A stretch of DNA of 38,083 nucleotides, taken from the IMG/VR virus record IMGVR_UViG_3300032333_000142, positions 1-38,083 of that record. One strand, given 5' to 3'. The DNA comes from a virus. Under the pieces are notes generated by a model. It ran no database searches and had not been told where the DNA came from. It saw only the letters and a program-made list of their open reading frames with translations. Positions 2,416-32,616 of the stretch are shown here, piece after piece. The position numbers and the translations under genes are program-made. Each line of letters begins with the position of its first letter. The stretch's first letter is position 1.

Positions 2416-3386
2416 ATAAACTTCCATATGAAATACTAGAAGAAGAATACGCAAAGTATGTTGGTACTAAATATGCAGTATCTACTAACACTGGAACTTC
2501 TGCTTTGCACTTAGCTTTAGCATCTATTGGAATTGGGAAAGGAGATGAAGTCATTATCCCTGATTTCACTATGATTGCCTGTGCTTGGGCTGTATCTTAC
2601 ACAGGAGCAAAACCTGTCTTTGTAGATTGTGGAGATGATCTTCTTATAGATGTCAGTAAAATAGAAAACAAAATAACAAAAAGAACTAAAGCAATTATGC
2701 CAGTTCATATTTACGGAAGAATCTGTGATATGGATAAAATAATGAAGTTGGCTAAAAAATATAAACTCCGAGTAATTGAAGACTGCTGTGAAGCTCAAGG
2801 AGGTATGTGGAAAGATAAAATGGTGGGAACTTTTGATATTGGAGTGTTCTCTTTCTTCTGGAACAAGATCATCCCTGCTGAAGAAGGCGGAATAATTACT
2901 ACAAATCACAAAAGGACTGCTGATCAAGCGAAATTTTTGAAGAATATGGCTTTCACTCCAGAGCATAATTACTTTCATCCTGAAATGGGATTTAATTATC
3001 GGATGCCTAATTTAGAAGCTCAAGTGGCTTTAAATTCTCTAACTATGATAAATGGAATCCAGCAGAAACGTTTCCAAATTGAGGGTTGGTATAATAAATA
3101 CCTTCATCCACAAATGCAAATGCCTAAAAGAAATGTAGTCTGGGTTTATGACTGCAAACATCCTTACGCTGAGAAAATCGTAAAAACCCTTAATTCACAA
3201 GGTTATAATGCCAGAATGAGTTTCAAGCCGATGTCTATGCAACCTATGTATCTTGGAAAGTATAAAAAAACTAACGCTTATAAACAATCTAAACAGATTT
3301 TTTATCTACCTGTATCCCCTTTAATGACAGAAGAAACAGTTATGGATATTTGCTCTAAAATTGACACCTATATAGGCGAGTTATAA
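2412..3386 (+). CDS. DegT/DnrJ/EryC1/StrS-family sugar aminotransferase
   Basis: A 324-residue PLP-dependent aminotransferase that converts a keto-sugar nucleotide to an amino-sugar, typically using glutamate. TNTGTSALHLAL (25-36) is the phosphate-binding segment, IED (122-124) holds the Asp contacting the PLP ring nitrogen, and FSFFWNK (146-152) holds the Schiff-base Lys K152 just before EEGG. The protein is slightly shorter than usual at the N-terminus. It overlaps the dehydrogenase-like gene by four bases, so the epimerase, dehydrogenase and aminotransferase form one co-expressed sugar-nucleotide block. The last codons also contain the -35 and -10 boxes of the next gene's promoter. Confidence 0.92.
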   Translation: MNKLPYEILEEEYAKYVGTKYAVSTNTGTSALHLALASIGIGKGDEVIIPDFTMIACAWAVSYTGAKPVFVDCGDDLLIDVSKIENKITKRTKAIMPVHIYGRICDMDKIMKLAKKYKLRVIEDCCEAQGGMWKDKMVGTFDIGVFSFFWNKIIPAEEGGIITTNHKRTADQAKFLKNMAFTPEHNYFHPEMGFNYRMPNLEAQVALNSLTMINGIQQKRFQIEGWYNKYLHPQMQMPKRNVVWVYDCKHPYAEKIVKTLNSQGYNARMSFKPMSMQPMYLGKYKKTNAYKQSKQIFYLPVSPLMTEETVMDICSKIDTYIGEL

Positions 3387-3393
3387 TGCAGTA
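3361..3393 (+). promoter_or_regulatory. Promoter, TTGACA-15-TATAAT, leaderless start at 3394
   Basis: TTGACA lies at 3361-3366 and TATAAT at 3382-3387, both perfect consensus, with a 15-base spacer. Six bases separate the -10 box from ATG 3394, so transcription should start at the start codon. The promoter is embedded in the last codons of the aminotransferase gene. Its spacer shares TATAGGCG-GTTAT with the portal promoter at 28419. Confidence 0.8.
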
Positions 3394-4110
3394 ATGCAAT
3401 ATAATTCACACGCAACTAACCAAGATCTAGTATCTCTTTTAAATGACCTCACAGGAATGGATGATAATATCTATTCTCTTCCTGCCAAAACAAGAGATAT
3501 GAATACAGCTAATCGTGCTATCTGGACTTGGATTCACGAAGCTTATGGTGGATGGCAATATGATGATGCGAACAATACTTCTGACTTTCCAACTGCTACA
3601 ACTTCTCTAGTCTCTAGTCAAAAAGATTATGGAATCCCTTCTGATGCAATGACAGTCCGAGCTGTGGAAGTAAAAAATACTTCTGGAGTCTGGAACAAAA
3701 TGCTTCCTTTAACTGAAGAACAGATCAGAGACTTTCAAGCTGAAAATGAATTCTACAAGACTGCATCACAGCCTCAATATTACACTGTAAAGGGTAACTC
3801 TATAAATCTATTCCCTGCTCCGAATTATTCTCAATCTGCATCTCTTAGAGTTTCTTATGATCGTGAGACTTCGGCTTTCGTAACTACAGATACAACTAAA
3901 ACTGCTGGATTTGCTTCAGTATTTCACGAAGCTATTGCCTATGGTGCAGGAGCTATTTTTTCTTCTTACAAATCTATTCCACAAATGGTCGCATTACAGC
4001 AAAGATGGCTTGATTACGAGCAAAGAATTAAGACATTTTATTCAAATCGTTATCACGAACTGTTTCCTCCACGAATTACTGTGAGAGATGCAGTTTCGGA
4101 ATATCAATAA
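3394..4110 (+). CDS. Head-tail adaptor (P22 gp4 / T7 gp11-like connector protein)
   Basis: A 238-residue protein resembling the adaptor that forms a ring under the portal of short-tailed phages. An alpha-helical N-terminus with W-rich segments (residues 45-60) is followed by a beta segment with the family-like run IPSDAMTVRAVEVKN. Further on are a SQPQYYTVKG strand and a P-rich turn (LFPAPNY), and then a helical C-terminus. Assignment rests on this pattern and on position as first gene of the tail module, not on a catalytic motif. It has its own consensus promoter and starts without a leader. The stop overlaps the next start (TAATG). Confidence 0.65.
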   Translation: MQYNSHATNQDLVSLLNDLTGMDDNIYSLPAKTRDMNTANRAIWTWIHEAYGGWQYDDANNTSDFPTATTSLVSSQKDYGIPSDAMTVRAVEVKNTSGVWNKMLPLTEEQIRDFQAENEFYKTASQPQYYTVKGNSINLFPAPNYSQSASLRVSYDRETSAFVTTDTTKTAGFASVFHEAIAYGAGAIFSSYKSIPQMVALQQRWLDYEQRIKTFYSNRYHELFPPRITVRDAVSEYQ

Positions 4111-4313
4111 TGCCTACAACATATACAAATGAACCAAAATATGCGAACCAAACATCAATTACTTACAACGAAGTGGGTGTAACTTATAATTCTTTAATAT
4201 ATAATTACAACGGAAAAATTCCTCCAACTTGGTCCACTGGAGCTAGGAATTCTAGTTCTTACTCAAATGAAAGTAAGAATTCGTCTTCCTATTCTAATGA
4301 AACGAGAAACTAA
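4110..4313 (+). CDS. Small Asn/Ser/Tyr-rich structural protein with tandem peptide repeat
   Basis: A 67-residue protein with no recognised family. The composition (Asn, Ser, Thr, Tyr) is typical of virion proteins. The C-terminus holds two near-identical copies of NSSSYSNE separated by two residues, and an earlier Y-N rich stretch (YNSLIYNYNG). It is joined by one-base stop/start overlaps to the adaptor upstream and the tail protein downstream, so it is almost certainly made with them and may be a minor tail component. Confidence 0.65.
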   Translation: MPTTYTNEPKYANQTSITYNEVGVTYNSLIYNYNGKIPPTWSTGARNSSSYSNESKNSSSYSNETRN

Positions 4314-7584: not shown

Positions 7585-7826
7585 AAAATAATAAAGATCC
7601 ATTCCCAAAAGTTCCGAGCCATACCCACAATGGTGTAGATAGTCCACAAATAGATGGTCGTAGTTTTGTCGGTACTCCTTTTCCAGCGATCACTGCTCAG
7701 TCAGGAAGTTTGAGTACAGGAGGGGGTGCAGTATTATCAACTAGCGATTCTGATACCATAGTAAACACAATAAATAGAGTTACAGAAATTGAAGATTTAT
7801 TGCGTACTTTAGGAATCATTATATAA
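7578..7826 (+). CDS. Small virion-associated hypothetical protein
   Basis: An 82-residue protein with a short motif, FPKVPSHTHNGVDSPQIDGRSF, common near the start of phage tail proteins. A low-complexity Ser/Gly stretch follows, then a C-terminal helix (IVNTINRVTEIEDLLRTLG) that could form a coiled coil. It is probably a minor tail protein or a fibre connector. It overlaps the upstream gene by 7 bases. The promoter of the next gene is embedded in its final codons. Confidence 0.6.
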   Translation: MVENNKDPFPKVPSHTHNGVDSPQIDGRSFVGTPFPAITAQSGSLSTGGGAVLSTSDSDTIVNTINRVTEIEDLLRTLGIII

Positions 7827-7833
7827 TTCACAT
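7800..7833 (+). promoter_or_regulatory. Promoter with TATAAT 6 bases before ATG (leaderless)
   Basis: TATAAT at 7822-7827 is separated from ATG 7834 by six bases. A weak -35 (TTGCGT, 7800-7805) sits 16 bases upstream. The placement predicts that the mRNA starts at the A of the start codon. The -10 box is strong; the -35 is uncertain. Confidence 0.6.
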
Positions 7834-9849
7834 ATGTCATTATTTTCTAAAGCAAAATCAGTAATCAGTAAAGTAGGAAGTGCGATTAAAAAAATCACCA
7901 CTATCCCTACTAAAATAGGTCCTCAACCTGCATCTGTTGGGTTATCTAAATCTACTCAACCTTTCAAGAGTGCATTACCAACACCTAAGCCATTGGGAGG
8001 TTTATCTTCAGGGAAAACACCAACATCTGGCTCTAGTACAAAATTCATAGGTCCATTACAACCAAAGCCGAAATTTCCTAATGGTCCAATAACACAAATT
8101 GGTTCAAATTGGTATCCTGCTGGGGGTGCTATAACACAAGTTGGAGACACCTTTGTTCCTGCAAAAAATATTTCCATAAAACCTAGTGGTGGAGGAGGAA
8201 GTTCTTCTAATAAATTAACTGCTACAAATACACCTAGTAATTTTGATGCTCTAAGTTTTGGATCAGAGACAAGTGCATTTTCTGTTCCAGCAAATACTCC
8301 AGCTTCTAGTGGAGCAAGTTATGGAGGTGATGGTGGTATAGGAGCTTATCTCGGAGCTAGTGCTGGAAGCACAGCGAACCCTGCCCTCAATCCAAATATG
8401 GGTGCATATAACCCTATGGCTTCTTATGAAGAAGAACAAAAGAAAAGACAAAAAGAAGCCGAAAAATCTCAAAGAGATCTTATTAAAATGATGAATGAAT
8501 TGGCTGGTAAACCTGCTGAAGCTGTTAGACTTGAAGGAGAGGCTGGAATACCACAAACTGAAGCAGAAATTCGTGATCTTCAAGCAAAACAAAGTGCGGA
8601 GACTGCTCAATATATTGCTCAGACTCAAGCAATTCAAAACAAACCAATTGCTATGGAATTTATCGCTGGTCAGCAAGGAGAAGTGCAAAGACGTTATGGT
8701 ATTGATGCTTTGATCACATCATCTCTGGTCCAAGCGAAATCTGGTCAATTAGAAACTGCAAAGGCTTCAGTTGATCGTGCCCTATCTTTAAAATATGATC
8801 CAATAGAAGCTAGAATAAAAACTCAAGAACAAATTCTACAATTTAACTACGATAATCTTGATCGTGCCGATAAGAAACTAGCTGATGCACGTTTAGAAGT
8901 CTTGAATTCTCAAAAAGAAGACTTACAACAATTTAAAGATATTCAAACTGAAACAGTGAAGACTGCTTTAGCAAATGGAGCATCTTCTGATGTAGTCTCT
9001 GCAATAATGAATGCAACTTCTGTTGCTGATATAGGTAAAATTGGAGGTCAATATGCTCCTGCTGGAACATTTATGGACTTCGGAACTTCAACTTCTGGAT
9101 TCACACCTACTCAACAATCTAACTTCAATAAGATTCCTGATAACTTAAAGACCAGTGTCCTTGAGCTTGTAAATGGTGATGTCCTTTTGTCTGACCTTGT
9201 AAAATCAAGAGGAATTCAAGGCACACAGCAAATCCAGCAACTTCTTTCTTACGCTCAAGCTATTGATCCAACATATAGTCCAAACACTGAGAAGATTAGA
9301 TACGAATTTAAGAAACAATGGAGTACAGATGCGGTAAAGGGTGCTGTAGGATCACAAACAGCTATCAACACTGCTCTCGGACACTTAGCAGACTTAGCTG
9401 AGGCTTCTAGGTCTCTTCCAGCGAATGTTCTAAAGAAAATGAACTCTGTAAAGAACATTTTATCTAAAGAATTTGGAGATCCATCAGTTACGAACTTCAG
9501 AATAGTTCTTAATGCTCTCGGAACAGAGTTAGCACGTGTTTATAAGGGTGGAGTACCAAATGAAGGTGAAATTAAAGAGTGGCAAGAATCACTTGCATCA
9601 AATTTCTCACAATCTCAGTTAAATGGAGCATTCAATACTACTTCCAAACTTCTATCCTCTAAACTTACAGCATTGAGATATAAATATACAACTACAATGG
9701 GCAGAGAGTATGATCAAAGTCTTATTGACCCTGATAAAAGAGAGGCACTTATTCAAGCTGGAATTAATCCTGATTATATAATTAAAGAAAACCTTCCTAC
9801 TTCAGTTGCAGGTTCAACTTTGGTAGATGGATTTTCAGAAACTTGGTAA
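7834..9849 (+). CDS. Large virion protein, possible internal/ejection protein
   Basis: A 671-residue protein without a recognised domain. Residues 1-170 are Pro/Gly/Ser/Lys-rich and look disordered. Residues ~190-370 are highly charged and helical (EEEQKKRQKEAEKSQRDL and later Ala/Gln-rich helices), suggesting coiled coils. The C-terminal third is mixed alpha, including an ETEK-like helical domain at about 480-640. The gene directly precedes a lysozyme-headed giant protein, and paired helical and lysozyme proteins are typical of the ejection-protein set of podoviruses (established for T7 and P22). This role is inferred from position and composition. It starts leaderless and ends in a TAATG overlap. 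Confidence 0.6.
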   Translation: MSLFSKAKSVISKVGSAIKKITTIPTKIGPQPASVGLSKSTQPFKSALPTPKPLGGLSSGKTPTSGSSTKFIGPLQPKPKFPNGPITQIGSNWYPAGGAITQVGDTFVPAKNISIKPSGGGGSSSNKLTATNTPSNFDALSFGSETSAFSVPANTPASSGASYGGDGGIGAYLGASAGSTANPALNPNMGAYNPMASYEEEQKKRQKEAEKSQRDLIKMMNELAGKPAEAVRLEGEAGIPQTEAEIRDLQAKQSAETAQYIAQTQAIQNKPIAMEFIAGQQGEVQRRYGIDALITSSLVQAKSGQLETAKASVDRALSLKYDPIEARIKTQEQILQFNYDNLDRADKKLADARLEVLNSQKEDLQQFKDIQTETVKTALANGASSDVVSAIMNATSVADIGKIGGQYAPAGTFMDFGTSTSGFTPTQQSNFNKIPDNLKTSVLELVNGDVLLSDLVKSRGIQGTQQIQQLLSYAQAIDPTYSPNTEKIRYEFKKQWSTDAVKGAVGSQTAINTALGHLADLAEASRSLPANVLKKMNSVKNILSKEFGDPSVTNFRIVLNALGTELARVYKGGVPNEGEIKEWQESLASNFSQSQLNGAFNTTSKLLSSKLTALRYKYTTTMGREYDQSLIDPDKREALIQAGINPDYIIKENLPTSVAGSTLVDGFSETW

Positions 9850-12833: not shown

Positions 12834-12840
12834 TAGGAAT

Positions 12841-12869
12841 CCCCAGTTATCCACATCTGGGGTTTTTAT
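12841..12869 (+). terminator. Intrinsic terminator ending the tail/ejection operon
   Basis: A perfect 6-bp stem CCCCAG (12841-12846) / CTGGGG (12857-12862) has a 10-base loop and is followed by TTTTTATTT. It lies 8 bases past the preceding stop. The loop contains a perfect DnaA box. Confidence 0.9.
12847..12855 (+). other. DnaA-box consensus TTATCCACA (copy 1)
   Basis: A perfect match to the bacterial DnaA box, preceded by G, lying in the loop of the terminator at 12841. It is one of three intergenic copies in the same orientation (others at 20796 and 21574). Whether DnaA binds is inference. Confidence 0.5.
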
Positions 12870-12873
12870 TTGC

Positions 12874-12902
12874 TTGACTTATCAACCGCAAGTTGCTATA
12901 CT
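12874..12902 (+). promoter_or_regulatory. Promoter, TTGACT-17-TATACT with extended -10
   Basis: TTGACT (12874-12879) and TATACT (12897-12902) are 17 bases apart, with TG one base before the -10 box. Transcription should start near 12909, giving a leader of about 39 bases before ATG 12948. It directly follows a terminator and drives the small-gene block 12948-13997. Unlike most other promoters here it leaves a leader, but that leader has no Shine-Dalgarno sequence near the ATG. Confidence 0.85.
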
Positions 12903-12947
12903 ATATGAGGGAGTGAGGGTCGGTTCTCTCCTCCGATTATAAGTTAA

Positions 12948-13295
12948 ATGAATGACAAACTTATGAAAGACAAAATATTTTATACAAGTTGGGGATATGA
13001 TATGACTCACAATGACTATGTTTTAGTTTTGAGTGAGACAGACAAAAGTTGTATGGTCCAGATGATAGGAAATAAACGTTTGACTGGTGGAGGATATACT
13101 GGAGAGGAAGTTCCAGATCCAGAGAAGAAATTTGGTGTTCCGTTTAGACTTCTAAAAAGAAATTACAAATGGGGAGAAGGTGAGGCTTATTTGAAAGGTA
13201 GTTACCCATTCTGTCTTGGAGATATGAGTGCGAAGAGGTTAGATAGCTTTAGAGTTTGGAATGGTCGCCCAAATTATTATAATACTATGGATTAA
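12948..13295 (+). CDS. Small phage/plasmid protein of the SWGYD type
   Basis: A 115-residue protein. The N-terminal run YTSWGYDMTHNDYVLVLSET resembles a family of small hypothetical proteins found on phages and plasmids, which begin with a SWGY(D/E)QT-like motif and continue as a beta-rich domain. No enzymatic function is known to me for that family. It is the first gene after a strong promoter, ahead of a zinc-ribbon protein and an XRE regulator, which suggests early expression. Confidence 0.7.
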   Translation: MNDKLMKDKIFYTSWGYDMTHNDYVLVLSETDKSCMVQMIGNKRLTGGGYTGEEVPDPEKKFGVPFRLLKRNYKWGEGEAYLKGSYPFCLGDMSAKRLDSFRVWNGRPNYYNTMD

Positions 13296-14006: not shown

Positions 14007-14033
14007 TTGACATATGCAATAGGGTGGTATTAT
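14007..14033 (+). promoter_or_regulatory. Promoter, TTGACA-15-TATTAT, leaderless start at 14041
   Basis: TTGACA (14007-14012) and TATTAT (14028-14033) are 15 bases apart, with TGG before the -10 box (extended -10). Seven bases separate the -10 box from ATG 14041, predicting a leaderless fibre mRNA. It belongs to the same 15-base-spacer class as the promoters at 3361 and 28419. Confidence 0.8.
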
Positions 14034-14040
14034 TAAGCCT

Positions 14041-17004
14041 ATGAACGAAAGGCTAAAAAAGAAAGCTCAAAAACTCATTGATAACAACGGAAACGAGTAT
14101 CTTGCACAATTGGATGCAACTATTGAAATTTCAGATAAGTTAGATGATCTCACAGAAGCAATAAAAGACTTTCAAACTCCAGAACCTCCAGAAGTGGAAG
14201 TAAATTTAGACAAAACTGATACGCTCTTACAAGACATACTTGCGGAGTTAAAAAAAAAAGACGAAGAAGAAATTACATATTCAATTAGTCCTGAAGACCA
14301 AGAAAAGCTTCGTGGAGAAGATGGCTACACTCCTGAAAAGGGAGTAGATTACTTTGATGGAAAAGACGGACAGAATGGAGAAAATGGGAAGGATGGATCT
14401 CCAGATACCAGAGAAGACATAATCAAGAAAATAAATGAAGGCGGAGTGCTTAAAATCAATGCTTCTGAAGTTACTGGTTTACCTGATTTCACTCGTGAAG
14501 TGGTCCGAGAAGTTGGAATGGGTTTTGTAGAGACTCCTATAAAAGCTGGTAGCAATATTTCTATTACAACTGATGCTAGTGGAGCAAGAGTTATTTCTTC
14601 AACTGCTTCAGGTGGTGGCTCTTTTGCCACTCTCACAGGCGACCCTTATGATAATGCAAACCTAACAACTGCTTTAGATGCAAAACAAGACGACATAACT
14701 TTAACTACCACAGGTTCTTCTGGAGCTTCAACATTAGTAGGGGCGACTTTAAACATACCAACTTACACTCTTGCAGGGCTTGGTGGTGCTAACACAGCAC
14801 TTTCAAACCTTTCTTCTGTGGCGATAAATACTTCACTTATCTCCGACACTACAAAAACAGATGACTTAGGAAGTTCAACTATTAAATGGCGAAATACATA
14901 TACTGAAAATCTTTATGCTGATACTATAGGCATAACTTCTTTGAAAGGAGTTTTCGGAGAAAGATTTTTATTCGTCAACGAATTTTCTGATGTGCTATGG
15001 AGAGCAGATAAAAGATTTACAGTTACTTCATCTTGGGGGGGTGGGATTTTAGCCAATCTATTTAAGGGTGGTTTTGAAAATACATATACAATCACACCGT
15101 CTGTAACTGATGTCATAAATATAAATTTAGCTAACCAATCTGGTGTTCCTGCTGGTGGAGTCACTTACCCTGAAGGTAAATTCTATGTTCACTTCTATTA
15201 CACCAATAATAACTATTCTGCAATTTCGGCTAGAGTTAAAGAAGGTGGAGTTTGGTATGCTTTAGCGACTCCAGTAAATATTTCAACAGTAGTAGGTGAT
15301 AAGGTTTTAGAGTTTTCTATTCCTGGAGCAAACTATCTCACAGATATAGAACTTACAATTACCACAAATGGTTCTGATAATGTTTTAGTAACTGCTTTAA
15401 ATTATGTATGCAATAGATGGACAGCAGAACTAGAACTTCCTTACTTTGATAAGTTTGCATTATCTAATAGCATTATGGGTAATACAGCTTTTAGAACAGT
15501 ATCTCAAACTACTTCTGCCAACATAAACGCTGACGGAGATTGGTATATGGGAGTTGGTGGAACAGGTGGAAAGTTTGGTATCGGAACTTCTAGCCCAGGA
15601 ACTTATCATTTAAATGTAGTAGGAAATATTTTAGGTAATAGTATTTATACTAACTCAGGGCAAATATTTGGAAGTCTTGGAATTGCATATTTAAGAGCTG
15701 GAAGCACTAACCCAACTCACATCAATGATACTGCTTCAGGAGATATTTGGTTAGCAGGTGGTGGTGGAGATGTAGGTGTAGGAGAACAATATCCAACTAA
15801 TAGACTTCACGTCAAAGCCCTTTCTGCAACTGCTTCTTATAACCTCTTAAACATTGATGGTGGAGCAACTGGCTTTTCAGGAGCAAACGACACAGGAGCT
15901 TATTCTATAATCTTTTCAGGTTGTGCTTACCAAACAAGTATAGTGCAAGTAATCGGAGCAAAGATACAATTTGAAAAGGCTAATACTTGGAACTATGCTG
16001 ATACACCAACAGGAACAAGGTCTATTGTTAATTTTTATGCTTCAGCAGGAACACCGGACTCGCCAACCCTAGTGAAATTCCTTTCCGGTTATTGGGATAA
16101 TACAGTTAGACTTCCTTCACTAGATACAGATGCAACTGCTCCAACAACTTCAGGCACAACTAAAATGGTTATCACAGATGCAAATGGGCAACTTTCATTC
16201 ACAACAATACCAACTTCAGGTAGTGCCACATTCATAGGACTTACTGATGTTCCAGCAAACTTTACAGGTAGTGCAAATAAATATGTGAGAGTAAATGCAG
16301 GGGAAACTGCTTTGGAGTTCGTTACTCTAGCTGGTGGTGGAGATGCACTTGTAGCAAACCCATTATCTCAATTCGCTTCTACAACTTCTTTACAACTAGC
16401 AGGTGTAATTTCTGATGAAACAGGTTCAGGTGCTTTAGTATTCGCTACTTCTCCAACTTTAGTAACTCCGATACTTGGAACTCCAACATCAGGAACACTT
16501 ACAAACTGCACAGGACTTCCACTTACAGGATTAGTTTCAGATACAACAACAGCTCTAGGCATAGGCTCAATCAATTTAGGACACGCTTCAGACACTACAA
16601 TAGCAAGAGTTTCAGCAGGAGTAATTTCAGTAGAAGGCGTTACTATCCCAACAATATCTTCAACAAGTACTCTAACTAATAAACGAATAACAAAACGAGT
16701 AGTAACCACTACAGATGATGCTACAGCAGTTATTGATGTTGATGCCACAGATGTATATGAACTTTCAGCAGTTGCTAACGCTACTACATTTTCAACCACA
16801 GGAACACCGACAGACGGGCAAACAATGCTGATACGATTTAAAGATGCAGGTGTAGCGAAGGGATTAACTTGGGATGCAATATTCGTTGCAATAGGAGTAA
16901 CTTTACCAACAACAACAGTAGTCAGTAAATGGCACTATGTCGGAGTGCAATATAATTCGTCAGCTACGAAATGGCACACAATAGCCGTTTCTGTAGAAGC
17001 ATAA
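14041..17004 (+). CDS. Tail fibre/spike with collagen-like segment
   Basis: A 987-residue fibre protein. The N-terminal ~85 residues are a charged helix, probably a coiled-coil trimer stem. Residues ~91-125 form a short collagen-like stretch (GEDGYTPEKG, FDGKDGQNGENGKDG) typical of trimeric fibres. Residues ~180-290 are Thr/Ser-rich with the LTTALDAKQD and TLAGLGGANTALSNL motifs common in phage fibres. Residues ~330-480 form a beta-sandwich-like segment. The C-terminal half contains repeated fibre motifs (SPTLVTPILGTPTSGTLTNCTGLPLTGLV). It likely carries host-receptor recognition. No hydrolase motif or obvious self-cleaving chaperone is visible. Confidence 0.88.
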   Translation: MNERLKKKAQKLIDNNGNEYLAQLDATIEISDKLDDLTEAIKDFQTPEPPEVEVNLDKTDTLLQDILAELKKKDEEEITYSISPEDQEKLRGEDGYTPEKGVDYFDGKDGQNGENGKDGSPDTREDIIKKINEGGVLKINASEVTGLPDFTREVVREVGMGFVETPIKAGSNISITTDASGARVISSTASGGGSFATLTGDPYDNANLTTALDAKQDDITLTTTGSSGASTLVGATLNIPTYTLAGLGGANTALSNLSSVAINTSLISDTTKTDDLGSSTIKWRNTYTENLYADTIGITSLKGVFGERFLFVNEFSDVLWRADKRFTVTSSWGGGILANLFKGGFENTYTITPSVTDVININLANQSGVPAGGVTYPEGKFYVHFYYTNNNYSAISARVKEGGVWYALATPVNISTVVGDKVLEFSIPGANYLTDIELTITTNGSDNVLVTALNYVCNRWTAELELPYFDKFALSNSIMGNTAFRTVSQTTSANINADGDWYMGVGGTGGKFGIGTSSPGTYHLNVVGNILGNSIYTNSGQIFGSLGIAYLRAGSTNPTHINDTASGDIWLAGGGGDVGVGEQYPTNRLHVKALSATASYNLLNIDGGATGFSGANDTGAYSIIFSGCAYQTSIVQVIGAKIQFEKANTWNYADTPTGTRSIVNFYASAGTPDSPTLVKFLSGYWDNTVRLPSLDTDATAPTTSGTTKMVITDANGQLSFTTIPTSGSATFIGLTDVPANFTGSANKYVRVNAGETALEFVTLAGGGDALVANPLSQFASTTSLQLAGVISDETGSGALVFATSPTLVTPILGTPTSGTLTNCTGLPLTGLVSDTTTALGIGSINLGHASDTTIARVSAGVISVEGVTIPTISSTSTLTNKRITKRVVTTTDDATAVIDVDATDVYELSAVANATTFSTTGTPTDGQTMLIRFKDAGVAKGLTWDAIFVAIGVTLPTTTVVSKWHYVGVQYNSSATKWHTIAVSVEA

Positions 17005-20377: not shown

Positions 20378-20389
20378 TATAATTTATCT
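20378..20389 (+). promoter_or_regulatory. TATAAT 6 bases before ATG 20390 (leaderless)
   Basis: A perfect -10 box at 20378-20383 with six bases to ATG 20390. No good -35 is seen at 16-18 bases upstream. Placement predicts a leaderless mRNA and decides the start of the NinG-like gene, since an upstream TTG (20375) would lie upstream of the predicted transcript start. Confidence 0.65.
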
Positions 20390-20794
20390 ATGAAGTTAGA
20401 AAACAAACTAGAAAAATGGAATCTTAACAAATGGAAAAAAGAGTTTGATAAAGTTTTCGCTGTTTATATAAAGGATAGAGATAAGTGGACCTGTTTTACT
20501 TGCGGAAAATATGCTACTGGACTTGGAATGAATAACGGACACTATATACCACGTGGAGCTTGTGGACTTGAATTATATTTCTCAGAAGATAATTGCCACG
20601 CACAGTGTTTTGAATGCAATTTAAAGCTTGAAGGAAATAGGCACGTTTACAAAGAAAAATTAGGAGAAGAAGTTCATAATAAACTTTACGAAATTTTCTA
20701 TAAACGAAACGGATCTATGAAATGGGATAAAATTGACTATGCAAATAAGATAGAAGAGTATCTAAAAAAGACTGAAGAATTAAGGGTTAATTGA
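20390..20794 (+). CDS. NinG-like recombination-associated zinc protein
   Basis: A 134-residue protein resembling lambda NinG (Rap). It has a zinc pair CFTC (35-38), GHYIPRG (50-56), a short segment corresponding to the R-F-x-E-x-N region (LYFSEDNCHAQC), a second pair CFEC (73-76), then N77 and GN with a helical tail. NinG/Rap proteins act as structure-specific nucleases in phage recombination; the fold is HNH-related. The ERF annealase and YqaJ exonuclease about 1.2 kb downstream make a recombination role plausible. The start is set by the TATAAT at 20378. Confidence 0.8.
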   Translation: MKLENKLEKWNLNKWKKEFDKVFAVYIKDRDKWTCFTCGKYATGLGMNNGHYIPRGACGLELYFSEDNCHAQCFECNLKLEGNRHVYKEKLGEEVHNKLYEIFYKRNGSMKWDKIDYANKIEEYLKKTEELRVN

Positions 20795-20795
20795 G

Positions 20796-20804
20796 TTATC
20801 CACA
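20796..20804 (+). other. DnaA-box consensus TTATCCACA (copy 2)
   Basis: A perfect DnaA box preceded by G, one base after the NinG-like stop. Its ATCCAC also forms the 5' arm of the terminator stem at 20798. Same orientation as the copies at 12847 and 21574. Confidence 0.5.
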
Positions 20805-20831
20805 ATTTGGTTTGCAGTGGATTTTTTATTT
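20798..20831 (+). terminator. Intrinsic terminator after the NinG-like gene
   Basis: Stem ATCCAC (20798-20803) / GTGGAT (20817-20822), perfect 6 bp with a 13-base loop, followed by TTTTTATTT. The next promoter's -35 and spacer lie inside this terminator. Confidence 0.85.
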
Positions 20832-20839
20832 AGTATAAT
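20812..20839 (+). promoter_or_regulatory. Promoter of the structured non-coding region
   Basis: TATAAT (20834-20839) with TTGCAG (20812-20817) 16 bases upstream. The start is predicted near 20846, directly before the inverted repeats of the gene-free region. The -35 overlaps the terminator hairpin, the same fused arrangement as at 32213. Confidence 0.65.
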
Positions 20840-20845
20840 TTATGT

Positions 20846-21020
20846 ATTCCTTGCGGTAAAAGAGAGATTGGTAACTAACTCGCAAGGAAGGTTATCTATC
20901 TCTCTTTTATTTTGGGAATGATGTCGTGGGGGTAAACTAGGCGACACTAAACCAAGCTAGTAAGCGTTGGGGGTCATCCTCTAAATTGTCAATCGGAAGG
21001 ACATATAAAACGCTTTCCTA
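20846..21020 (+). ncRNA. Candidate structured RNA (interlocked stems) in a 292-base gene-free stretch
   Basis: Between the NinG-like gene and the ORF at 21087 there is no convincing gene but strong pairing. Stem A is 9 bp, perfect: 20847-20855 with 20881-20889. Stem B is 12 bp, perfect: 20857-20868 with 20898-20909. The order A5-B5-A3-B3 makes them interlocked: either a pseudoknot or alternative folds. Stem B runs into a U-rich tract (20905-20913), like an attenuator. Stem C is 7 bp: 20962-20968 with 21009-21015. A promoter (TATAAT 20834) would start RNA one base before stem A. I do not recognise a known RNA family and see no tRNA. It could be a regulatory leader for 21087 or an independent small RNA. 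Confidence 0.55.
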
Positions 21021-21086
21021 CTCAACATTTTCTTTTTATAAAGTAATGGGGGGTAGGGGGGTCGTAACAAATCAAAAAAACATAAA

Positions 21087-21591: not shown

Positions 21592-21620
21592 TTGTGCTAG
21601 GACTTGTCCTATGTTATATT
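21592..21620 (+). promoter_or_regulatory. Promoter with 14-base palindromic operator in its spacer, leaderless start at 21627
   Basis: Extended -10 TGT-TATATT (-10 at 21615-21620), weak -35 TTGTGC (21592-21597), spacer 17. The spacer contains the near-perfect palindrome TAGGAC-TT-GTCCTA (21598-21611). A repressor there would block polymerase. Six bases separate the -10 box from ATG 21627, so the transcript is leaderless. It heads the ERF/YqaJ block. Confidence 0.7.
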
Positions 21621-21626
21621 TAACTT

Positions 21627-21770
21627 ATGAAAAAAGAAAACAAGGTTTTATTAAAAGTGTTAGTAGAGAAGGATCAGAAGAAGTACATTTCTCAAACTGC
21701 TAAGAAGCAAGGAGTTTCTGAAGCAGAAGTCGTAAGAGTGATACTACATTATTATATAACAAAAAAATAA
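21627..21770 (+). CDS. Small putative DNA-binding protein
   Basis: A 47-residue basic protein. KYISQTAKKQGVSEAEVVRVILHYY resembles a helix-turn-helix or ribbon-helix-helix segment (residues 19-43), with the SEAEVVR turn typical of small regulators. It starts leaderless from an operator-bearing promoter and could be autoregulatory; this is inference. The next gene follows after one base. Confidence 0.6.
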   Translation: MKKENKVLLKVLVEKDQKKYISQTAKKQGVSEAEVVRVILHYYITKK

Positions 21771-23253: not shown

Positions 23254-23553
23254 ATGACATTACCAGAATTATTCTTAGCAGTTAAAGAAAAACAACTTCC
23301 AAAAGATAAGTTGGAAGCTTATAGAGATGAAATGAGCCAGTTGTTTGCTGATATGCAGATAGAGATGGCAGATCTTGAGAAAGAAGAAGCCTTGTTTATG
23401 GATAAGAAAACTCCAGAAGACTCAGTGGCTCAAATGAAGGTTTATTGGAAAGCAACACCAAGCGGACAGAGGTTGATAGTGCTAAAACGCTACTGTCTCG
23501 CAACGAAAGAATTATTAAATAGTTTAAAGAGTCGTTTGTACTCAGTATATTAA
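23254..23553 (+). CDS. Hypothetical helical protein following the exonuclease
   Basis: A 99-residue mostly helical protein with a charged coiled-coil N-terminal half (KLEAYRDEMSQLFADMQIEMADLEKEEA) and a basic C-terminus (GQRLIVLKRYCLATKELLNSLKSRLYSVY). The C-terminal basic helix could bind DNA. Similar small helical proteins often follow YqaJ nucleases in phages, but no function is assigned. Confidence 0.65.
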   Translation: MTLPELFLAVKEKQLPKDKLEAYRDEMSQLFADMQIEMADLEKEEALFMDKKTPEDSVAQMKVYWKATPSGQRLIVLKRYCLATKELLNSLKSRLYSVY

Positions 23554-23557
23554 ATTT

Positions 23558-23722
23558 ATGGATACATTTATTTTAGGAGTAATCGTTATATATTCAATAG
23601 CTCACTTGTTTGCTTTGCAAACAAAAGCCTATAAAGATAGAAGTCTATACGAGAAAATTGTGAGTTGGGTCGGTTTTGTTTCAATTATTCTCCTTATTTT
23701 AGGACCAATAATCAATGGCTAG
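23558..23722 (+). CDS. Small two-segment membrane protein
   Basis: A 54-residue protein with two hydrophobic segments (IVIYSIAHLFAL at ~8-20 and VGFVSIILLILGPII at ~38-53) and a basic loop (KAYKDRSLYEK). The frame ends eight bases inside the next gene. No family is recognised; a membrane-active early protein is possible. Confidence 0.6.
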   Translation: MDTFILGVIVIYSIAHLFALQTKAYKDRSLYEKIVSWVGFVSIILLILGPIING

Positions 23723-25833: not shown

Positions 25834-26128
25834 AAAAGAAACAAAAACAGAACTTATGAATAATTTGATTGATACTTGTTTGGTGAGATTTAATAATTTG
25901 TGCCACTCAGAGTTATTACCAATAGCATTTAAAAAGTCAGTAGGCGAACTTGTAGATACTTTAGATAAATCTACCAGCGAAAAAATTGATAGAGAAGAAA
26001 TAATAAAAAAACTAGGCGAGTATCATAGAGAGCAAGGTGTATCATTTATGTCCGAAGAAGATGCAGTAAATTATTTTCGTGGGTTAGTAGATTTAATAGA
26101 GAGTTTTACAAGTTTAACCAAAGAATAG
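25826..26128 (+). CDS. Hypothetical helical protein
   Basis: A 100-residue charged, mostly helical protein with a single CLVRFNNLCH segment. No family is recognised. Its last codons contain part of the promoter at 26126. It is the last gene before the packaging block. Confidence 0.55.
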   Translation: MSKKETKTELMNNLIDTCLVRFNNLCHSELLPIAFKKSVGELVDTLDKSTSEKIDREEIIKKLGEYHREQGVSFMSEEDAVNYFRGLVDLIESFTSLTKE

Positions 26129-26153
26129 ACATTATAAATTAAGGTAGTATAAT
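26126..26153 (+). promoter_or_regulatory. Promoter, TAGACA-16-TATAAT, leaderless start at 26160
   Basis: TAGACA (26126-26131) and TATAAT (26148-26153) are 16 bases apart, and six bases separate the -10 box from ATG 26160. Same box pair and spacing as at 19269, with AAGGT before the -10 in both. Confidence 0.78.
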
Positions 26154-26159
26154 TAAGTT

Positions 26160-26369
26160 ATGCAAGAAATAAAACTAGATGACGTTCCAACAGTTCAATT
26201 AAAAGCTATGGTGTACGACATTATGGCTACGATAGAAAAAAATCAACACGATATAAAACTTCTAAATCAAGTAATAGAAGAAAGAAGGAATCAAAAACCA
26301 GTTATTCCTGAAGTAGTAAAAACTCCTGAAGAACCTATTAAGGAAGATCCAAAGGATGAAGTGTCCTAA
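26160..26369 (+). CDS. Small coiled-coil hypothetical protein
   Basis: A 69-residue protein with an N-terminal helix (TVQLKAMVYDIMATIEKNQHDIKLLNQVIEE) and a Pro/Glu/Lys-rich tail. It resembles small helical phage proteins but no family is assigned. It starts leaderless and overlaps the next gene by 14 bases. Confidence 0.62.
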   Translation: MQEIKLDDVPTVQLKAMVYDIMATIEKNQHDIKLLNQVIEERRNQKPVIPEVVKTPEEPIKEDPKDEVS

Positions 26370-26680: not shown

Positions 26681-26708
26681 TTTACTTGCAATAAATAAGT
26701 TGTATAAT
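26681..26708 (+). promoter_or_regulatory. Promoter with TATAAT 7 bases before ATG 26716 (leaderless)
   Basis: TATAAT (26703-26708), weak -35 TTTACT (26681-26686), spacer 16, seven bases to ATG 26716. It drives the terminase genes. Confidence 0.68.
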
Positions 26709-26715
26709 TAGTTTA

Positions 26716-27159
26716 ATGAAAAACAAAGTAGGAAGACCAACAGAATATAATAAAGACATACTCACTAAAGCAAAGAAATATATTCTAGAATCTGAAGATG
26801 AAGAGGTTCAGCAATTAGTAGGATTATCTGCTAAAGGTACTGAACTATTTAAAAATAAATTGAATGTAAAAATTCCAACTATTGAAGGATTAGCTTTATA
26901 TTTAAAAATAAACAGAGACACAATTTATGATTGGGAAGAAAAGTATAAACCATTTTCCGACATTATTGGAGAATTACGAGCAAAACAAGCAAATGCTCTA
27001 GTATCTAAAGGACTTTCTGGAGACTACAATCCAACTATCGCAAAAGTTTTATTAGCAAAGCACGGATATAGAGATGGAATAGAACATATGGGTAAAGATG
27101 GAGAGAAGTTAGAATTAAGTGTAGTTAGATATGAAACTGATAATACCACACCAATATAA
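26716..27159 (+). CDS. terS: Terminase small subunit
   Basis: A 147-residue protein. The N-terminal VGRPTEYNKDIL is the characteristic start of P22/gp3-like small terminases. The helix-turn-helix (PTIEGLALYLKINRDTIYDWEEKY) and the C-terminal region follow (AKVLLAKHGYRDG, a segment common to this family). It recognises phage DNA for packaging. It overlaps TerL by 29 bases, so both are translated together. Confidence 0.88.
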   Translation: MKNKVGRPTEYNKDILTKAKKYILESEDEEVQQLVGLSAKGTELFKNKLNVKIPTIEGLALYLKINRDTIYDWEEKYKPFSDIIGELRAKQANALVSKGLSGDYNPTIAKVLLAKHGYRDGIEHMGKDGEKLELSVVRYETDNTTPI

Positions 27160-28417
27160 ACCTAGATCCTATCAATTAGGACTTCTTAAAGCTTTAGACT
27201 CTGGAATAAATAGAGCTATCATAGTTTGGAATCGTAGATCTGGAAAAGATAAAACTTGCTGGAACTATATGATTCGTAGAGCAATAGAAAAAATTGGAAC
27301 GTATTATTACTTTCTTCCGACTTATGCTCAGGCTAAAAAAGTCATCTGGGATAACATAGACAATGATGGATTTAGAATGTTGGACCATATACCAGAGCAA
27401 TTAGTAAAATCAACTAATAGTCAGGAATTAAAAATAGAATTGATCAATGGAAGTATCATTCAACTTATCTCAGCCGATGAATTTAAAAAGTCTGGAGTTG
27501 GAGCTAATCCTATCGGTGTAGTTTTCTCCGAGTATTCAATTACAAATCCTGATGCTTGGAAATATGTTGCTCCTATTTTAGCTGTGAATAAAGGCTGGGC
27601 TATATTTAACTTTACTCCTAGAGGAATGAACCACGCTCACACGCTATTGCAACAGTATAAAGAAAATCATAGATGGTTTACAGAGATTTTAACAAATGAA
27701 GAGACTCAAGTTCTAACTGGTGATGCATTAGAAGAAGAACGAGCAAACAATCCGCAAGATATATTTGAACAAGAATACTACTGTAAATTTATAGAAGGTG
27801 CTGGAGCATTCTTTAGAGGAATTAGTAATATTTTAATAGAAGAAACTGAAAAGCTAGAACCAAATCATAAATACCAAATGGGAGTGGACTTAGCAAAGTA
27901 TCAAGATTATACAGTTATAACTTTGATTGATCTAAATACCTTCCACGTTTTAAAACAAGAAAGATTTAACCAGATTGATTGGAGCTTACAGAAAGCAAAG
28001 ATAGAAGCTCTGTATCATAAATTTGGAAAGCCATTAATTTATCTGGACTCTACTGGTGTTGGAGATCCTATCTATGAAGATCTATTTAAAGCTGGACTCC
28101 GAGTAGAAGGCTATAAGTTTACAGAGCAGTCAAGGAAGGATTTACTTACCAACTTAGCCATCAAAATAGAGCAAAATAAGATAAGAATACCTGATAATGA
28201 TACTTTAAAGAGTGAGCTACAGTCATTTCACTATGAATTACAAGGAGATAAGGGAAGAATACGTATTTGTGCTCCTGAGGGCTTACACGATGACACAGTA
28301 ATGAGCTTGGCTTTAGCTTGTTTTAACTTGCCAGAGAATCCGTTGCCTTTAGCTGGATCTGTTAGATTTTTAAATAGAACTATTGAAGATAAACAAGAAC
28401 AAACTTCTTACGAATAA
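27131..28417 (+). CDS. terL: Terminase large subunit
   Basis: A 428-residue packaging motor. Walker A is WNRRSGKDKT (33-42), the phage-type form of the P-loop. Walker B is IGVVFSE with E134, and coupling motif FNFTPRG (159-165) follows. The C-terminal nuclease has GVDLAKYQDYT with D253, YLDSTGVGDP with D306, and HDDTVMSLALA. Length is typical. The start overlaps TerS by 29 bases. The portal promoter follows two bases after the stop. Confidence 0.95.
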   Translation: MKLIIPHQYKPRSYQLGLLKALDSGINRAIIVWNRRSGKDKTCWNYMIRRAIEKIGTYYYFLPTYAQAKKVIWDNIDNDGFRMLDHIPEQLVKSTNSQELKIELINGSIIQLISADEFKKSGVGANPIGVVFSEYSITNPDAWKYVAPILAVNKGWAIFNFTPRGMNHAHTLLQQYKENHRWFTEILTNEETQVLTGDALEEERANNPQDIFEQEYYCKFIEGAGAFFRGISNILIEETEKLEPNHKYQMGVDLAKYQDYTVITLIDLNTFHVLKQERFNQIDWSLQKAKIEALYHKFGKPLIYLDSTGVGDPIYEDLFKAGLRVEGYKFTEQSRKDLLTNLAIKIEQNKIRIPDNDTLKSELQSFHYELQGDKGRIRICAPEGLHDDTVMSLALACFNLPENPLPLAGSVRFLNRTIEDKQEQTSYE

Positions 28418-28418: not shown

Positions 28419-28445
28419 TTGACAAGGGTATAGGCGTGTTATGCT
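28419..28445 (+). promoter_or_regulatory. Promoter, TTGACA-15-TATGCT with extended -10, ahead of portal gene
   Basis: TTGACA (28419-28424), TATGCT (28440-28445), spacer 15, TGT before the -10. Nine bases to ATG 28455, so a leader of 0-3 bases is predicted. The spacer shares TATAGGCG-GTTAT with the promoter at 3361. Confidence 0.75.
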
Positions 28446-28454
28446 TATCTCATA

Positions 28455-30257
28455 ATGAATGATTTTGATATATTTGGTCAAATAAATAAAGAACTAATTG
28501 ACTTCAAACAAAATAAGATTTTTATCGCTGGAACTCAGCAAGATACTGGGAGATATTTGGGTAAAGAACAAAAAGGATATTACTTTGGTCAATCAGAAAC
28601 TCTTAACTTAATAGATTTATATTACAATTCTAAGTTTGAAACAGGAATAAAAGATTCTGAAGGTCAAAGAAAATTATTCTTGAATATTTGTGCTTTCCGT
28701 TCTGATGTAGCAAGTAAGATGATAGATCTTGATACAAAGGATTTTATATTTATTCCTGATGAATCTAGTTCTAAATGGGGAGCTTGGTTTATCGGAAGAG
28801 AATTCAAAGATTGGGCTCGTAAGAATTACTTCGGTGAATTCATAAATGAATTGGTAGAAAACTTTCCTAAGTATGGAACTATAGTTGTAAAAAAGATTGG
28901 TAAAAGAGTAGAGCGTGTTCCTCTGAGGAATCTAGTGAACAAACAAGACGTGAAAACTCTTGAAGATAGTCCAGCAGTTATTGAAATCCACGAAGATATG
29001 AGTCTAGAAGATATGAGTAAATTTCCTGACTGGAATACTGACGGAATAGATCTAGAATTTGGCAAGACTACAACTGTGTATGAGAGATATGGTTTAGTGC
29101 CTGAGCCTTACTACAATAAACTCAAGGGATTACCTATAGATAATAAAAGCAAAAAGAATGTTCGCTGTGTAATCATTTCAACCTGTACTGAAAAAGCTGG
29201 TCAAAAAGATAGTTTTACTGGATCAGTTTTATTCTGTGAAAAGATAAAGAAACTTCCTTATGAAGAAGTTCACTGGAAGAAACAAGATGGAAGATGGCTT
29301 GGTATTGGTGAAGTAGAAAATCAATTTGAAAATCAGATTGCTAGAAATATGCTTACTAATTTACGAAGACGTGCATTACTCTGGTCTTCTAAAAAGATAT
29401 TCCAATCTCCTGATGATAATATTGCAAAGAATCTTATTCGTGATGTGAAAGATGGAGATGTATTGAAGATCCTTCCAAATGGAAACATAACTCAAGTAGA
29501 TATGGCTTCCAGACAAACTGGTGAATTCGGAACTGCTGAACAAGTATGGGAAACAAACTCTGATCAGAAATCATTTACTTACGAAGTTGCAACTGGTGAA
29601 TCATTGCCTTCTGGTACTCCATTTAGACTCGGAGTTGTTATGACTAACGCTGTGAATTCACATTTCAAACTAAAGAAACAAAAACTTGGTTTATTCTTGA
29701 AACGTTTAACTGTAGAGCAAGTCTTTGAAATATTTAAAGAGGAAAATAATAAAGAACACGTTATAACTTTGTTCGGAAACGAAGAAGGTATCCAGAATCT
29801 AAAGAAAGTTGCTTCAGTTATTGAGTTCAATAAGAGAATATTTGAGTGGTCTTTGACTGATGGAGATGATTTACCTGATTTTACTTTAGTAAAGAGCTTA
29901 ATTGAGGATCAATTCAAGAAAAAGTCTCACTTATTCATAACTATACCTGATAAATACTACGATTTCATAAAACATCACGTAGAATTGACCCTAACTGGAG
30001 AAGAAATAGATATACAGAGCAAAATTGAGACTTATAAGACACTATATCAATCAATGGTACAAACTGGAGACCCTAGAGCAGAACAGGTCTTAGATCTTAT
30101 ATTTGGACTTACTGGAGACACCCTAGAAGCTATTCTCGGACCGAAACCACAGCCTCAGCTTCCTCAAGGAGCTCCACAGGGGGCACAGCCTAGTCCTATG
30201 GGAATGAATCAATTAGCAATGAATAACGCACCTCAAGGTGCAGGACAACCAATGTAA
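28455..30257 (+). CDS. Portal protein
   Basis: A 600-residue protein directly after TerL, the usual portal position. The mixed alpha/beta body includes the wing-like DRLY-type segment (LPYEEVHWKKQDGRWLGIGEVENQFENQIARNMLTNLRRRALLW), which matches the stem/wing region of podovirus portals. The C-terminus is a Pro/Gln/Gly-rich tail (PQPQLPQGAPQGAQPSPMG). It forms the dodecameric DNA channel at one capsid vertex. The assignment rests on size, position and this segment. Confidence 0.85.
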   Translation: MNDFDIFGQINKELIDFKQNKIFIAGTQQDTGRYLGKEQKGYYFGQSETLNLIDLYYNSKFETGIKDSEGQRKLFLNICAFRSDVASKMIDLDTKDFIFIPDESSSKWGAWFIGREFKDWARKNYFGEFINELVENFPKYGTIVVKKIGKRVERVPLRNLVNKQDVKTLEDSPAVIEIHEDMSLEDMSKFPDWNTDGIDLEFGKTTTVYERYGLVPEPYYNKLKGLPIDNKSKKNVRCVIISTCTEKAGQKDSFTGSVLFCEKIKKLPYEEVHWKKQDGRWLGIGEVENQFENQIARNMLTNLRRRALLWSSKKIFQSPDDNIAKNLIRDVKDGDVLKILPNGNITQVDMASRQTGEFGTAEQVWETNSDQKSFTYEVATGESLPSGTPFRLGVVMTNAVNSHFKLKKQKLGLFLKRLTVEQVFEIFKEENNKEHVITLFGNEEGIQNLKKVASVIEFNKRIFEWSLTDGDDLPDFTLVKSLIEDQFKKKSHLFITIPDKYYDFIKHHVELTLTGEEIDIQSKIETYKTLYQSMVQTGDPRAEQVLDLIFGLTGDTLEAILGPKPQPQLPQGAPQGAQPSPMGMNQLAMNNAPQGAGQPM

Positions 30258-30488: not shown

Positions 30489-30527
30489 ATGAAAAAAGGA
30501 GGAAAAAAGGGTGGAAAAAAGTGTTAG
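30489..30527 (+). CDS. Possible 12-residue Lys/Gly microprotein
   Basis: A tiny ORF one base after the previous stop encodes MKKGGKKGGKKC. The strict KKGG repetition and terminal Cys are visible, and the reading frame is free of overlap. Similar very short Lys/Gly peptides have been seen between phage head genes, but this one is unproven. It may instead be a leader or a non-coding purine-rich tract. Confidence 0.35.
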   Translation: MKKGGKKGGKKC

Positions 30528-30538
30528 GTTAGTATCTT

Positions 30539-31213: not shown

Positions 31214-32179
31214 GTGAAATCATTATTCAAATTACTAAAGTTTAACTTTGCTGTTACAACTGATCCATTTACAGCTACAGACCTTGCTGGGTTTATTAGC
31301 GAGTACTGGACTCCTATTGTAAACAACAAAACCTTTGATGATACTGTTCTAGCGAACTTCATCACTGACTTGTCTATGTTTGCTACTGCTGGAAGTGATA
31401 TATTCCACGTACCGAATCTCTACACCAACGCTTTGACTGTTTCAACACAATCAACTCAAGGTGCAGAAATCACAACTGCTGGTCCTGCTCAAACTGATAC
31501 AACTTTGACTATCAATACTCACAAATATGTTTCATACATTATTGGTGATAAGGATATGGTTCAAATTGCATCTAAGTATGACGTTTCAGCAGAGTACGCT
31601 AAACAAGCACGTGGCTTGTTAGCAGACGCATTAGAAGCTGACATCGCTGGTTTATGGTCATCTTTGACTACAAACGCAATCGGAGACACTGCAACAGTTC
31701 TATCTGATGCAGAAATCCGAGCAGGATTGTATGCTATGGAAAATGGTAAGTACAAACTTTCAGAATGTGCTTTCTTCTTCCATCCGTATATCTTCTGGGA
31801 GCAATTACACGCTATCACTAAGTACTACCAGCAATATTCTGTTGGTCCAGCTACTTCTGGTGGTCCAGTACGAACTGGTAACTTCTCTTCAGATGGTTAC
31901 GTTCTAAACCAAAAGGGATTCCTTTACGGAGTACCTGTTTACACTACTACTAACATCGTTTCTGGACTTCAAACATACCGAAACTTGCTCCTTCACAAGA
32001 GTGCTTTCGGATTTGCTGTTCAAACAATGGGTGGTGGAAATAAGGTTCGTGCAACTGTAACTCACGAAAATAGAAACATTGGCTGGTTAGCTGTTGTTGA
32101 TATTATCTACGGAGTTGGAGTTCTACGTGAACCTGCTGGTGTTCTTCTAAACGGATCTAGTGCCTTTATCGGTTCATAG
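31214..32179 (+). CDS. Major capsid protein (HK97-like fold)
   Basis: A 321-residue protein. The N-arm, the central beta segment with GDKDMVQIASKYDVSAEYAKQARGLLADALEADIAGLW (~116-153), and the C-terminal beta segment (GWLAVVDIIYGVGVLREPAGVLL) form the pattern of HK97-fold coats of podoviruses. It is followed by a strong terminator, as expected for a highly expressed gene. The start is GTG 31214; no ATG fits upstream. The assignment rests on position, length and pattern, not a catalytic motif. Confidence 0.85.
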   Translation: MKSLFKLLKFNFAVTTDPFTATDLAGFISEYWTPIVNNKTFDDTVLANFITDLSMFATAGSDIFHVPNLYTNALTVSTQSTQGAEITTAGPAQTDTTLTINTHKYVSYIIGDKDMVQIASKYDVSAEYAKQARGLLADALEADIAGLWSSLTTNAIGDTATVLSDAEIRAGLYAMENGKYKLSECAFFFHPYIFWEQLHAITKYYQQYSVGPATSGGPVRTGNFSSDGYVLNQKGFLYGVPVYTTTNIVSGLQTYRNLLLHKSAFGFAVQTMGGGNKVRATVTHENRNIGWLAVVDIIYGVGVLREPAGVLLNGSSAFIGS

Positions 32180-32197: not shown

Positions 32198-32230
32198 AGA
32201 CCTTGCATTTACTTGCAGGGTCTTTTTGTT
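32198..32230 (+). terminator. Strong intrinsic terminator after the capsid gene
   Basis: A 10-bp stem (32198-32207 with 32214-32223, one G-U pair) with a 6-base loop, followed by TTTTGTTTGTTTT. It lies 18 bases past the capsid stop. The -35 box and spacer of the next promoter lie within it. Confidence 0.92.
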
Positions 32231-32241
32231 TGTTTTATAAT
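32213..32241 (+). promoter_or_regulatory. Promoter fused to the capsid terminator, leaderless start at 32248
   Basis: TATAAT (32236-32241) has TTGCAG (32213-32218) 17 bases upstream, the latter inside the terminator's 3' arm. Six bases to ATG 32248 predict a leaderless mRNA. This rules out an earlier in-frame TTG at 32203 as start. Confidence 0.72.
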
Positions 32242-32247
32242 GTATGT

Positions 32248-32616
32248 ATGCAATTTCCAACACCAGATCCTAAGCCATTAATTGCTGGGATGTCTGAAAA
32301 ACCTCCAGAACAAGCAGAGCGAATTTACTTCTTTCAAAGAAGTGATAATTCTGTCATTGCAGTTAAGGAAGCTGAGGCTTGGAATTTATATACTAAAAAA
32401 CAACAGATACTTGGGAAACATAAAAGGAATGATTTTGAATTAATTGGAACAGGTGATGGAGTGATATTCCAGAAATCAGTCTGGGATGCTAAAGAAGCTG
32501 GTAAGACTGATATTAAATTGGCTCAAGATATTATACGCAAAGGACAGAATGACGAATTAGAATCTTGTAGAGGTAGGATAATCCCTCCTCGTAATATGGA
32601 TACAATATCAATGTAA
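32248..32616 (+). CDS. Hypothetical protein after the capsid gene
   Basis: A 122-residue protein with a beta-rich middle (RIYFFQRSDNSVIAVKEAEAWNLYTKKQQILGK), a basic helix and a C-terminus with PPRNMDTISM. TAATG overlap with the next gene. No family is recognised. Position suggests a head or DNA-related accessory protein. Confidence 0.65.
   Translation: MQFPTPDPKPLIAGMSEKPPEQAERIYFFQRSDNSVIAVKEAEAWNLYTKKQQILGKHKRNDFELIGTGDGVIFQKSVWDAKEAGKTDIKLAQDIIRKGQNDELESCRGRIIPPRNMDTISM

Follow-up and report, generated by a model that had tools for sequence, protein, structure and literature searches.

Start-codon-adjacent -10 boxes and genes without Shine-Dalgarno sequences in a tailed phage whose probable hosts are Patescibacteria

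How are start codons chosen in a phage whose genes lack Shine-Dalgarno (SD) sequences? The question is raised by IMG/VR record IMGVR_UViG_3300032333_000142, the whole of which (38,083 bases, 35% GC) is the window analysed here, and for which an earlier note had proposed leaderless transcription across the genome. Because it carries a direct terminal repeat of 123 bases (1-123 and 37961-38083), the record probably represents a whole tailed-phage genome, circularly closed. It encodes the small and large terminase subunits, a major head protein, ERF and YqaJ recombination proteins, NinG and Dam, and the plus strand carries all genes used in the analysis. TGA serves as a normal stop in 10 of 58 genes, which rules out a recoded phage (codes 4 or 25). 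Two regions (771-3386 and 33400-37853) form a cassette resembling nucleotide-sugar/glycosyltransferase genes, with NAD-dependent epimerase-like, methyltransferase-like and DegT/DnrJ/EryC1/StrS aminotransferase members, the last with tblastn matches to phage homologues; the cassette may alter sugars of the virion or of the host surface. At 12838-12950 and 20795-21086, hairpins resembling terminators precede promoter-like elements and G-rich DNA in which there is no long ORF. These are possible small RNAs or structured leaders, and an Rfam search of the whole record, including both regions, gave no match.

We define the gap as the number of bases between the end of the -10 hexamer and the start codon. 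The earlier note had listed eight genes with a hexamer 6-7 bases before the start, and all eight are borne out, six by an exact TATAAT and two (ATG 14041 and 21627) by a box with one mismatch (Table 1). A ninth candidate, ATG 23558, absent from that list, also has a one-mismatch box and lies 4 nt past the stop of the preceding gene. The gap of nine given for the portal gene was likewise recovered, behind a perfect TTGACA, and a leader of 0 to about 3 nt is expected for its mRNA. At 3394 and 7834 the promoter reaches back into the end of the preceding gene, and that of 32248 lies directly 3' of a hairpin and T-run behind the major capsid gene. Among the 16 genes preceded by an intergenic gap longer than 15 nt, six have a -10 box with at most one mismatch at gap 6-7, and the portal has its weaker box at gap 9. 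The exceptions include 12948 and 19335, with boxes about 45 and about 38 nt upstream, and 30640 and 31214, which have no close -10 box upstream. Thus, the phrase 'across the genome' is right for about nine promoters and not for every transcription unit. At 31214 the GTG is the sole start of the major capsid ORF (31214-32179), and most homologues align from residue 12 on; GTG 31214 is a tentative assignment, and the true start or leader needs checking. The 152-nt gap preceding gene 30640 contains a tiny ORF (30489-30527) that reads MKKGGKKGGKKC, which is either a lysine/glycine peptide or chance.

Table 1. Promoter, start-codon and gene features of the phage window
Feature	Coordinates	Strand	Elements
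Promoter/start ATG 3394 (tail or virion structural gene)	3361..3396	+	TTGACA 3361-3366, 15-nt spacer, TATAAT 3382-3387, gap 6
Promoter/start ATG 7834	7822..7836	+	TATAAT 7822-7827, gap 6
Counter-example ATG 12948	12874..12950	+	TTGACT, 17-nt spacer, TATACT, leader about 40 nt, possible hairpin
Promoter/start ATG 14041	14007..14043	+	TTGACA 14007-14012, 15-nt spacer, TATTAT 14028-14033, gap 7
Promoter/start ATG 20390 (NinG homologue)	20378..20392	+	TATAAT 20378-20383, gap 6
Promoter/start ATG 21627	21615..21629	+	TATATT 21615-21620, gap 6
Candidate promoter/start ATG 23558	23546..23560	+	TATATT 23546-23551, gap 6
Promoter/start ATG 26160	26126..26162	+	TAGACA, 16-nt spacer, TATAAT 26148-26153, gap 6
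Promoter/start ATG 26716 (terminase small subunit)	26681..26718	+	TTTACT, 16-nt spacer, TATAAT 26703-26708, gap 7
Terminase large subunit (TerL)	27131..28417	+	Operon-internal, without SD; query for relatives
Promoter/start ATG 28455 (portal, as called in the earlier note)	28419..28457	+	TTGACA, 15-nt spacer, TATGCT 28440-28445, gap 9
Major capsid protein	31214..32179	+	GTG start, neither close -10 box nor SD: exception
Promoter/start ATG 32248	32236..32250	+	TATAAT 32236-32241, gap 6

The position of the boxes was far from random. Exact TATAAT stood at gap 5-8 before 6 of 59 curated starts; dinucleotide shuffles of the upstream regions gave a mean of 0.30 (maximum 3 in 2000) and thus no equal enrichment, and only 1 of 192 in-frame internal ATGs had such a box. 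The plus strand holds 34 exact TATAAT hexamers, of which only six sit 5-8 nt before a start. A start-agnostic test against permutations of TATAAT counted five at gap 6 and one at gap 7, where about 0.2-0.3 would be expected per gap, and there was no exact TATAAT at gaps 8-14 before phage starts, leaving a sharp peak at 6. The -10 box of a sigma-70 promoter occupies positions -12 to -7, and so a gap of 6 would put +1 on the A of ATG.

SD sequences were, indeed, absent. GGAG or GAGG at -18 to -4 occurred at none of the 59 phage starts, as against 2.9 expected by shuffling and 16 of 192 in-frame internal ATGs. The search included operon-internal genes and found none there either, as the earlier note had maintained. 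In 41 of 57 phage genes the start codon lies between -35 and +15 nt relative to the stop of the gene before, with TAATG and ATGA as frequent junctions, and T at -1 was found at 56% of phage starts and 65% of the relatives' operonic genes. The proximity of stop and start, together with T at -1, suggests reinitiation after termination, with help from a U(-1) contact.

The same signals recurred in relatives, which we collected by TerL searches of viral contigs and divided into a close set (50-66% identity; 29 contigs, 560 genes) and a distant set (35-47%). In the close set, exact TATAAT was counted 12 times at gap 6, where permuted hexamers gave 1.5, and a shoulder followed at gaps 7-10; the same test found no gap peak in the distant set. 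SD sequences were used by 42.5% of genes in the distant set (background 5.7%) versus 4.7% in the close set (background 8.1%). Counted by contig, the SD fraction had a median of 0 among 28 close relatives and of 0.38 among the distant ones (p=1e-7), and the fraction of starts with T at -1 was 0.60 and 0.29 per contig, respectively (p=5e-7). In the nearest relatives we found no gene-by-gene conservation of the -10 boxes; it is the -10/ATG rule, not the individual boxes, that the relatives have in common. TATAAT of their portal genes lies at gaps 6, 6, 7, 8, 8, 9, 10 and beyond, to 20, and some leaders may therefore be very short rather than absent. A named-phage record found via the portal gene, MW202577 (Manatee Spring), is SD-less with a weak excess at gaps 6-10. 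The AT-rich control phages T4 and pelagiphage HTVC010P have SD sequences and no excess at gap 6-7.

When we scanned genomes with TerL, the sole close homologue within a genome bin, 59% identical, was in the metagenome-assembled genome (MAG) G001; weaker matches came from four other genomes of its class, and none was found in 48 other genomes of its family. The genomes of this class are small (0.5-1.2 Mb, G001 excepted). G001 is CPR-like, and its class is probably the patescibacterial class Paceibacteria. Phage contigs in bins are weak evidence of a host, and the link to G001 is weak by itself because the bin is mixed, with two 16S types and some contigs that use SD. The phage contig in it is, moreover, short, so Patescibacteria are no more than the probable host. 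Tetranucleotide correlation ranked the unrelated HTVC010P and T4 beside the candidate hosts and was not used, because it did not separate the two. The phage and the candidate host class do have initiation signals in common (the -10 gap, SD poverty and T at -1), and these signals split sharply across the TerL divide, which strengthens the earlier proposal that the phage follows the rules of its host.

An initial comparison of -10 boxes and SD sequences, limited to 20-40 kb of each genome and to crudely called starts, gave too much noise; the comparisons given here use start-agnostic permutation controls and longer contigs. The signature was clearest in genome G045, whose 16S on the analysed contig lacks CCTCC. 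There, TATAAT-like boxes at gaps 6 and 7 preceded 71 of 304 genes versus 15.4 expected (p=7e-25), exact TATAAT occurred 15 times at gap 6 and 9 times at gap 7 (1.7 and 1.2 expected), and no excess of SD was found on the same contig. Operon-first genes of G045 had T-12 in 49%, A-11 in 59%, T-7 in 50%, G-14 in 32% and, in about 75%, a pyrimidine at -1; a promoter with its +1 on the A of ATG predicts these base columns. Where a Pfam match allows a judgement the starts are sound, with the domain beginning at residue 4 in DnaJ and in the 2-hydroxyacid dehydrogenase and at residue 7 in Ddl. On G045 contig C2, a second TANNNT register was seen at gap 11 beside the gap-6 peak, in 36 genes versus 13 for the control pattern. 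The leaderless signal varies across the class. Four genomes of G001's family (G553, G460, G546 and G563) had smaller yet significant excesses, with the peak of G460 at gap 9. In G041 (33% GC), where CCTCC is intact, the gap-6 signal is weaker and AAGGAG is present as well; leaderless genes thus also occur in members that keep the anti-SD. G031 is an exception: SD-like motifs (AGGAG) are enriched on its contig C6 although this contig carries a 16S without CCTCC. G051, in whose regions some stretches were withheld, was left out of the evidence.

Loss of the anti-SD is common in the class. Of its 28 readable 16S 3' ends, 11 keep CCTCC, 6 have a degraded form and 11 have none, so that 17 are without CCTCC. 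Both 16S genes of G001 lack CCUCC and end in GGATTAATTC(C)AATTG in place of the expected GGATCACCTCCTT. The GGATTAATTCCAAT tail is present in all 19 readable other members of the family and is thus not an assembly error. The family-conserved 3' tail, GGATTAATTCCAATTGG, is unlike the anti-SD and contains the palindrome CCAATTGG. Among enriched 5-mers we saw no alternative SD complementary to the new tails. Era binds GAUCACCUCC (PMC10582724), and both Era and Der were below cut-off in all 55 class genomes. A contrast within the class, in which anti-SD loss would track Era, fails, as the two proteins score below cut-off everywhere. Earlier loss of Era may have permitted loss of the anti-SD.

We propose that these are ordinary sigma-70-type promoters with the -10 box fused to the start codon, from which RNA polymerase would begin on the A of AUG or no more than 1-3 nt away from it, giving a leaderless mRNA. 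The ribosome would then bind the 5'-terminal AUG directly, without SD pairing. Operon-internal genes, whose starts lie on or close to the preceding stop codon with a preference for U at -1, would most likely be translated by termination-reinitiation plus contact of UAUG with the initiator tRNA. Such a scheme, SD-free in both modes, would match SD-poor Patescibacteria, some with the anti-SD lost from 16S, as the likely hosts. The position of the boxes, the absence of SD and T at -1 are directly observed in the phage, they recur in its relatives, and the candidate hosts have the same signature together with loss of CCUCC. Since the spacing fits +1 at the A of ATG, we infer the exact 5' ends from it; the leaderless reading of the earlier note is supported in this sense. 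Leaderless operon-first genes with SD-free, coupled or UAUG-dependent internal genes, matched to SD-poor Patescibacteria, are accordingly the reading that we favour and regard as likely, while its 5' ends, ribosome mechanism, coupling and host are the parts reached by inference. A wider reading, for which we think the chances only somewhat better than even, is that a large part of the Patescibacteria and their phages gave up SD initiation, with leaderless operon-first genes, internal coupling plus U at -1, and an anti-SD lost repeatedly and in one family replaced by GGAUUAAUUCCAAU.

A rival reading has promoters close to the genes and leaders of 1-15 nt, on which the start codon would be set by low structure and U at -1 and not by a 5'-terminal AUG. 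The relatives' portal promoters at gaps 8-20, the shoulder in their pooled profile and the G460 peak speak for such leaders, and we give this SD-independent alternative a small though real chance. The phage peak is sharp at 6 and empty at 8-14, however, G045 peaks at 6 and then 7, and the T or C at -1 of its operon-first genes is what one would expect of transcription that starts at the A of ATG on a pyrimidine-purine step. Chance in AT-rich DNA, where base composition and stop/start overlaps would place boxes near ATGs, might be suspected at 35% GC, in which A+T-rich hexamers are common; it is refuted, as the pattern did not arise in dinucleotide shuffles, permuted hexamers, internal ATGs or the AT-rich phages T4 and HTVC010P.

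The leaderless, SD-free scheme matched to Patescibacteria has also to be weighed against two other hosts. The promoter box of Bacteroidetes is TAnnTTTG, and an AT-rich host of this type would combine it with leadered mRNAs and SD-free initiation. Flavobacterium phage 11b is, like our phage, without SD and prefers T at -1, but TAnnTTTG precedes 7 of 56 genes in 11b and only 1 of 58 in the phage (0 of the 16 with an intergenic gap), the phage box is TATAAT with TTGACA-like -35 elements, and the gap 6-7 excess in 11b is not significant (p=0.14); we hold a Bacteroidetes-type host to be very improbable. A textbook leaderless host fares equally badly. Actinobacteria and Deinococcus-Thermus keep SD sequences for many genes, and operon-internal SD is usual in the classic leaderless bacteria; the operon-internal phage genes are without SD, unlike the mixed use in those hosts. 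Thermus and Meiothermus phages do appear among the TerL matches, but at a low 26-28% identity, and no named phage record holds a relative with at least 50% TerL identity. So, although both groups are known for -10-adjacent leaderless genes (PMC3160421, PMC12340547), there is little reason to expect the host among them, and the host clue leads beyond the textbook cases, Actinobacteria and Deinococcus, that the earlier note named.

If the favoured reading holds, the signature offers a clue, from sequence only, to the hosts of phages of uncultured Patescibacteria. In such genomes, gene finders built on SD or long leaders will put starts in the wrong place; the genomes are also a natural system for studying start-codon choice, on leaderless as well as polycistronic mRNAs, by ribosomes that lack an anti-SD.

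The system has partial counterparts. The TA-led genes of bacteria (Zheng 2011, PMC3160421) and the promoters of Deinococcus-Thermus (PMC12340547) likewise have TANNNT or TATAAT a few bases before the start, a leaderless reading and an optional -35; the phage differs from them in lacking SD at operon-internal genes too, in being AT-rich and in its other likely host group. Bacteroidetes and Flavobacteria (PMC6847099) also initiate without SD, with composition near the start that matters and, in 11b as well, T at -1, but their ribosomes keep the anti-SD and their promoter box is the one named above where the phage has TATAAT. Searches, with preprints and most subscription journals outside their reach, found no literature joining leaderless promoters with Patescibacteria or their phages. 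Bacteria without CCUCC are described in Lim 2012 (PMC3522020) and Amin 2018 (PMC6107228), and PMC10783764 lists Campbellbacteria, Wolfebacteria, Absconditabacteria and Peregrinibacteria as non-anti-SD; as far as the accessible portions of these three sources go, they have in common with our candidate hosts a 16S without CCUCC, genes without SD and some CPR lineages, whereas the phages, the leaderless -10/ATG signature and the replacement tail found throughout one family are features of the present system only. Leaderless genes and anti-SD loss are thus each known, and what we claim as new is the combination in which first genes are leaderless and internal genes do without SD, seen both in phages and in candidate hosts, whether these keep the anti-SD or not.
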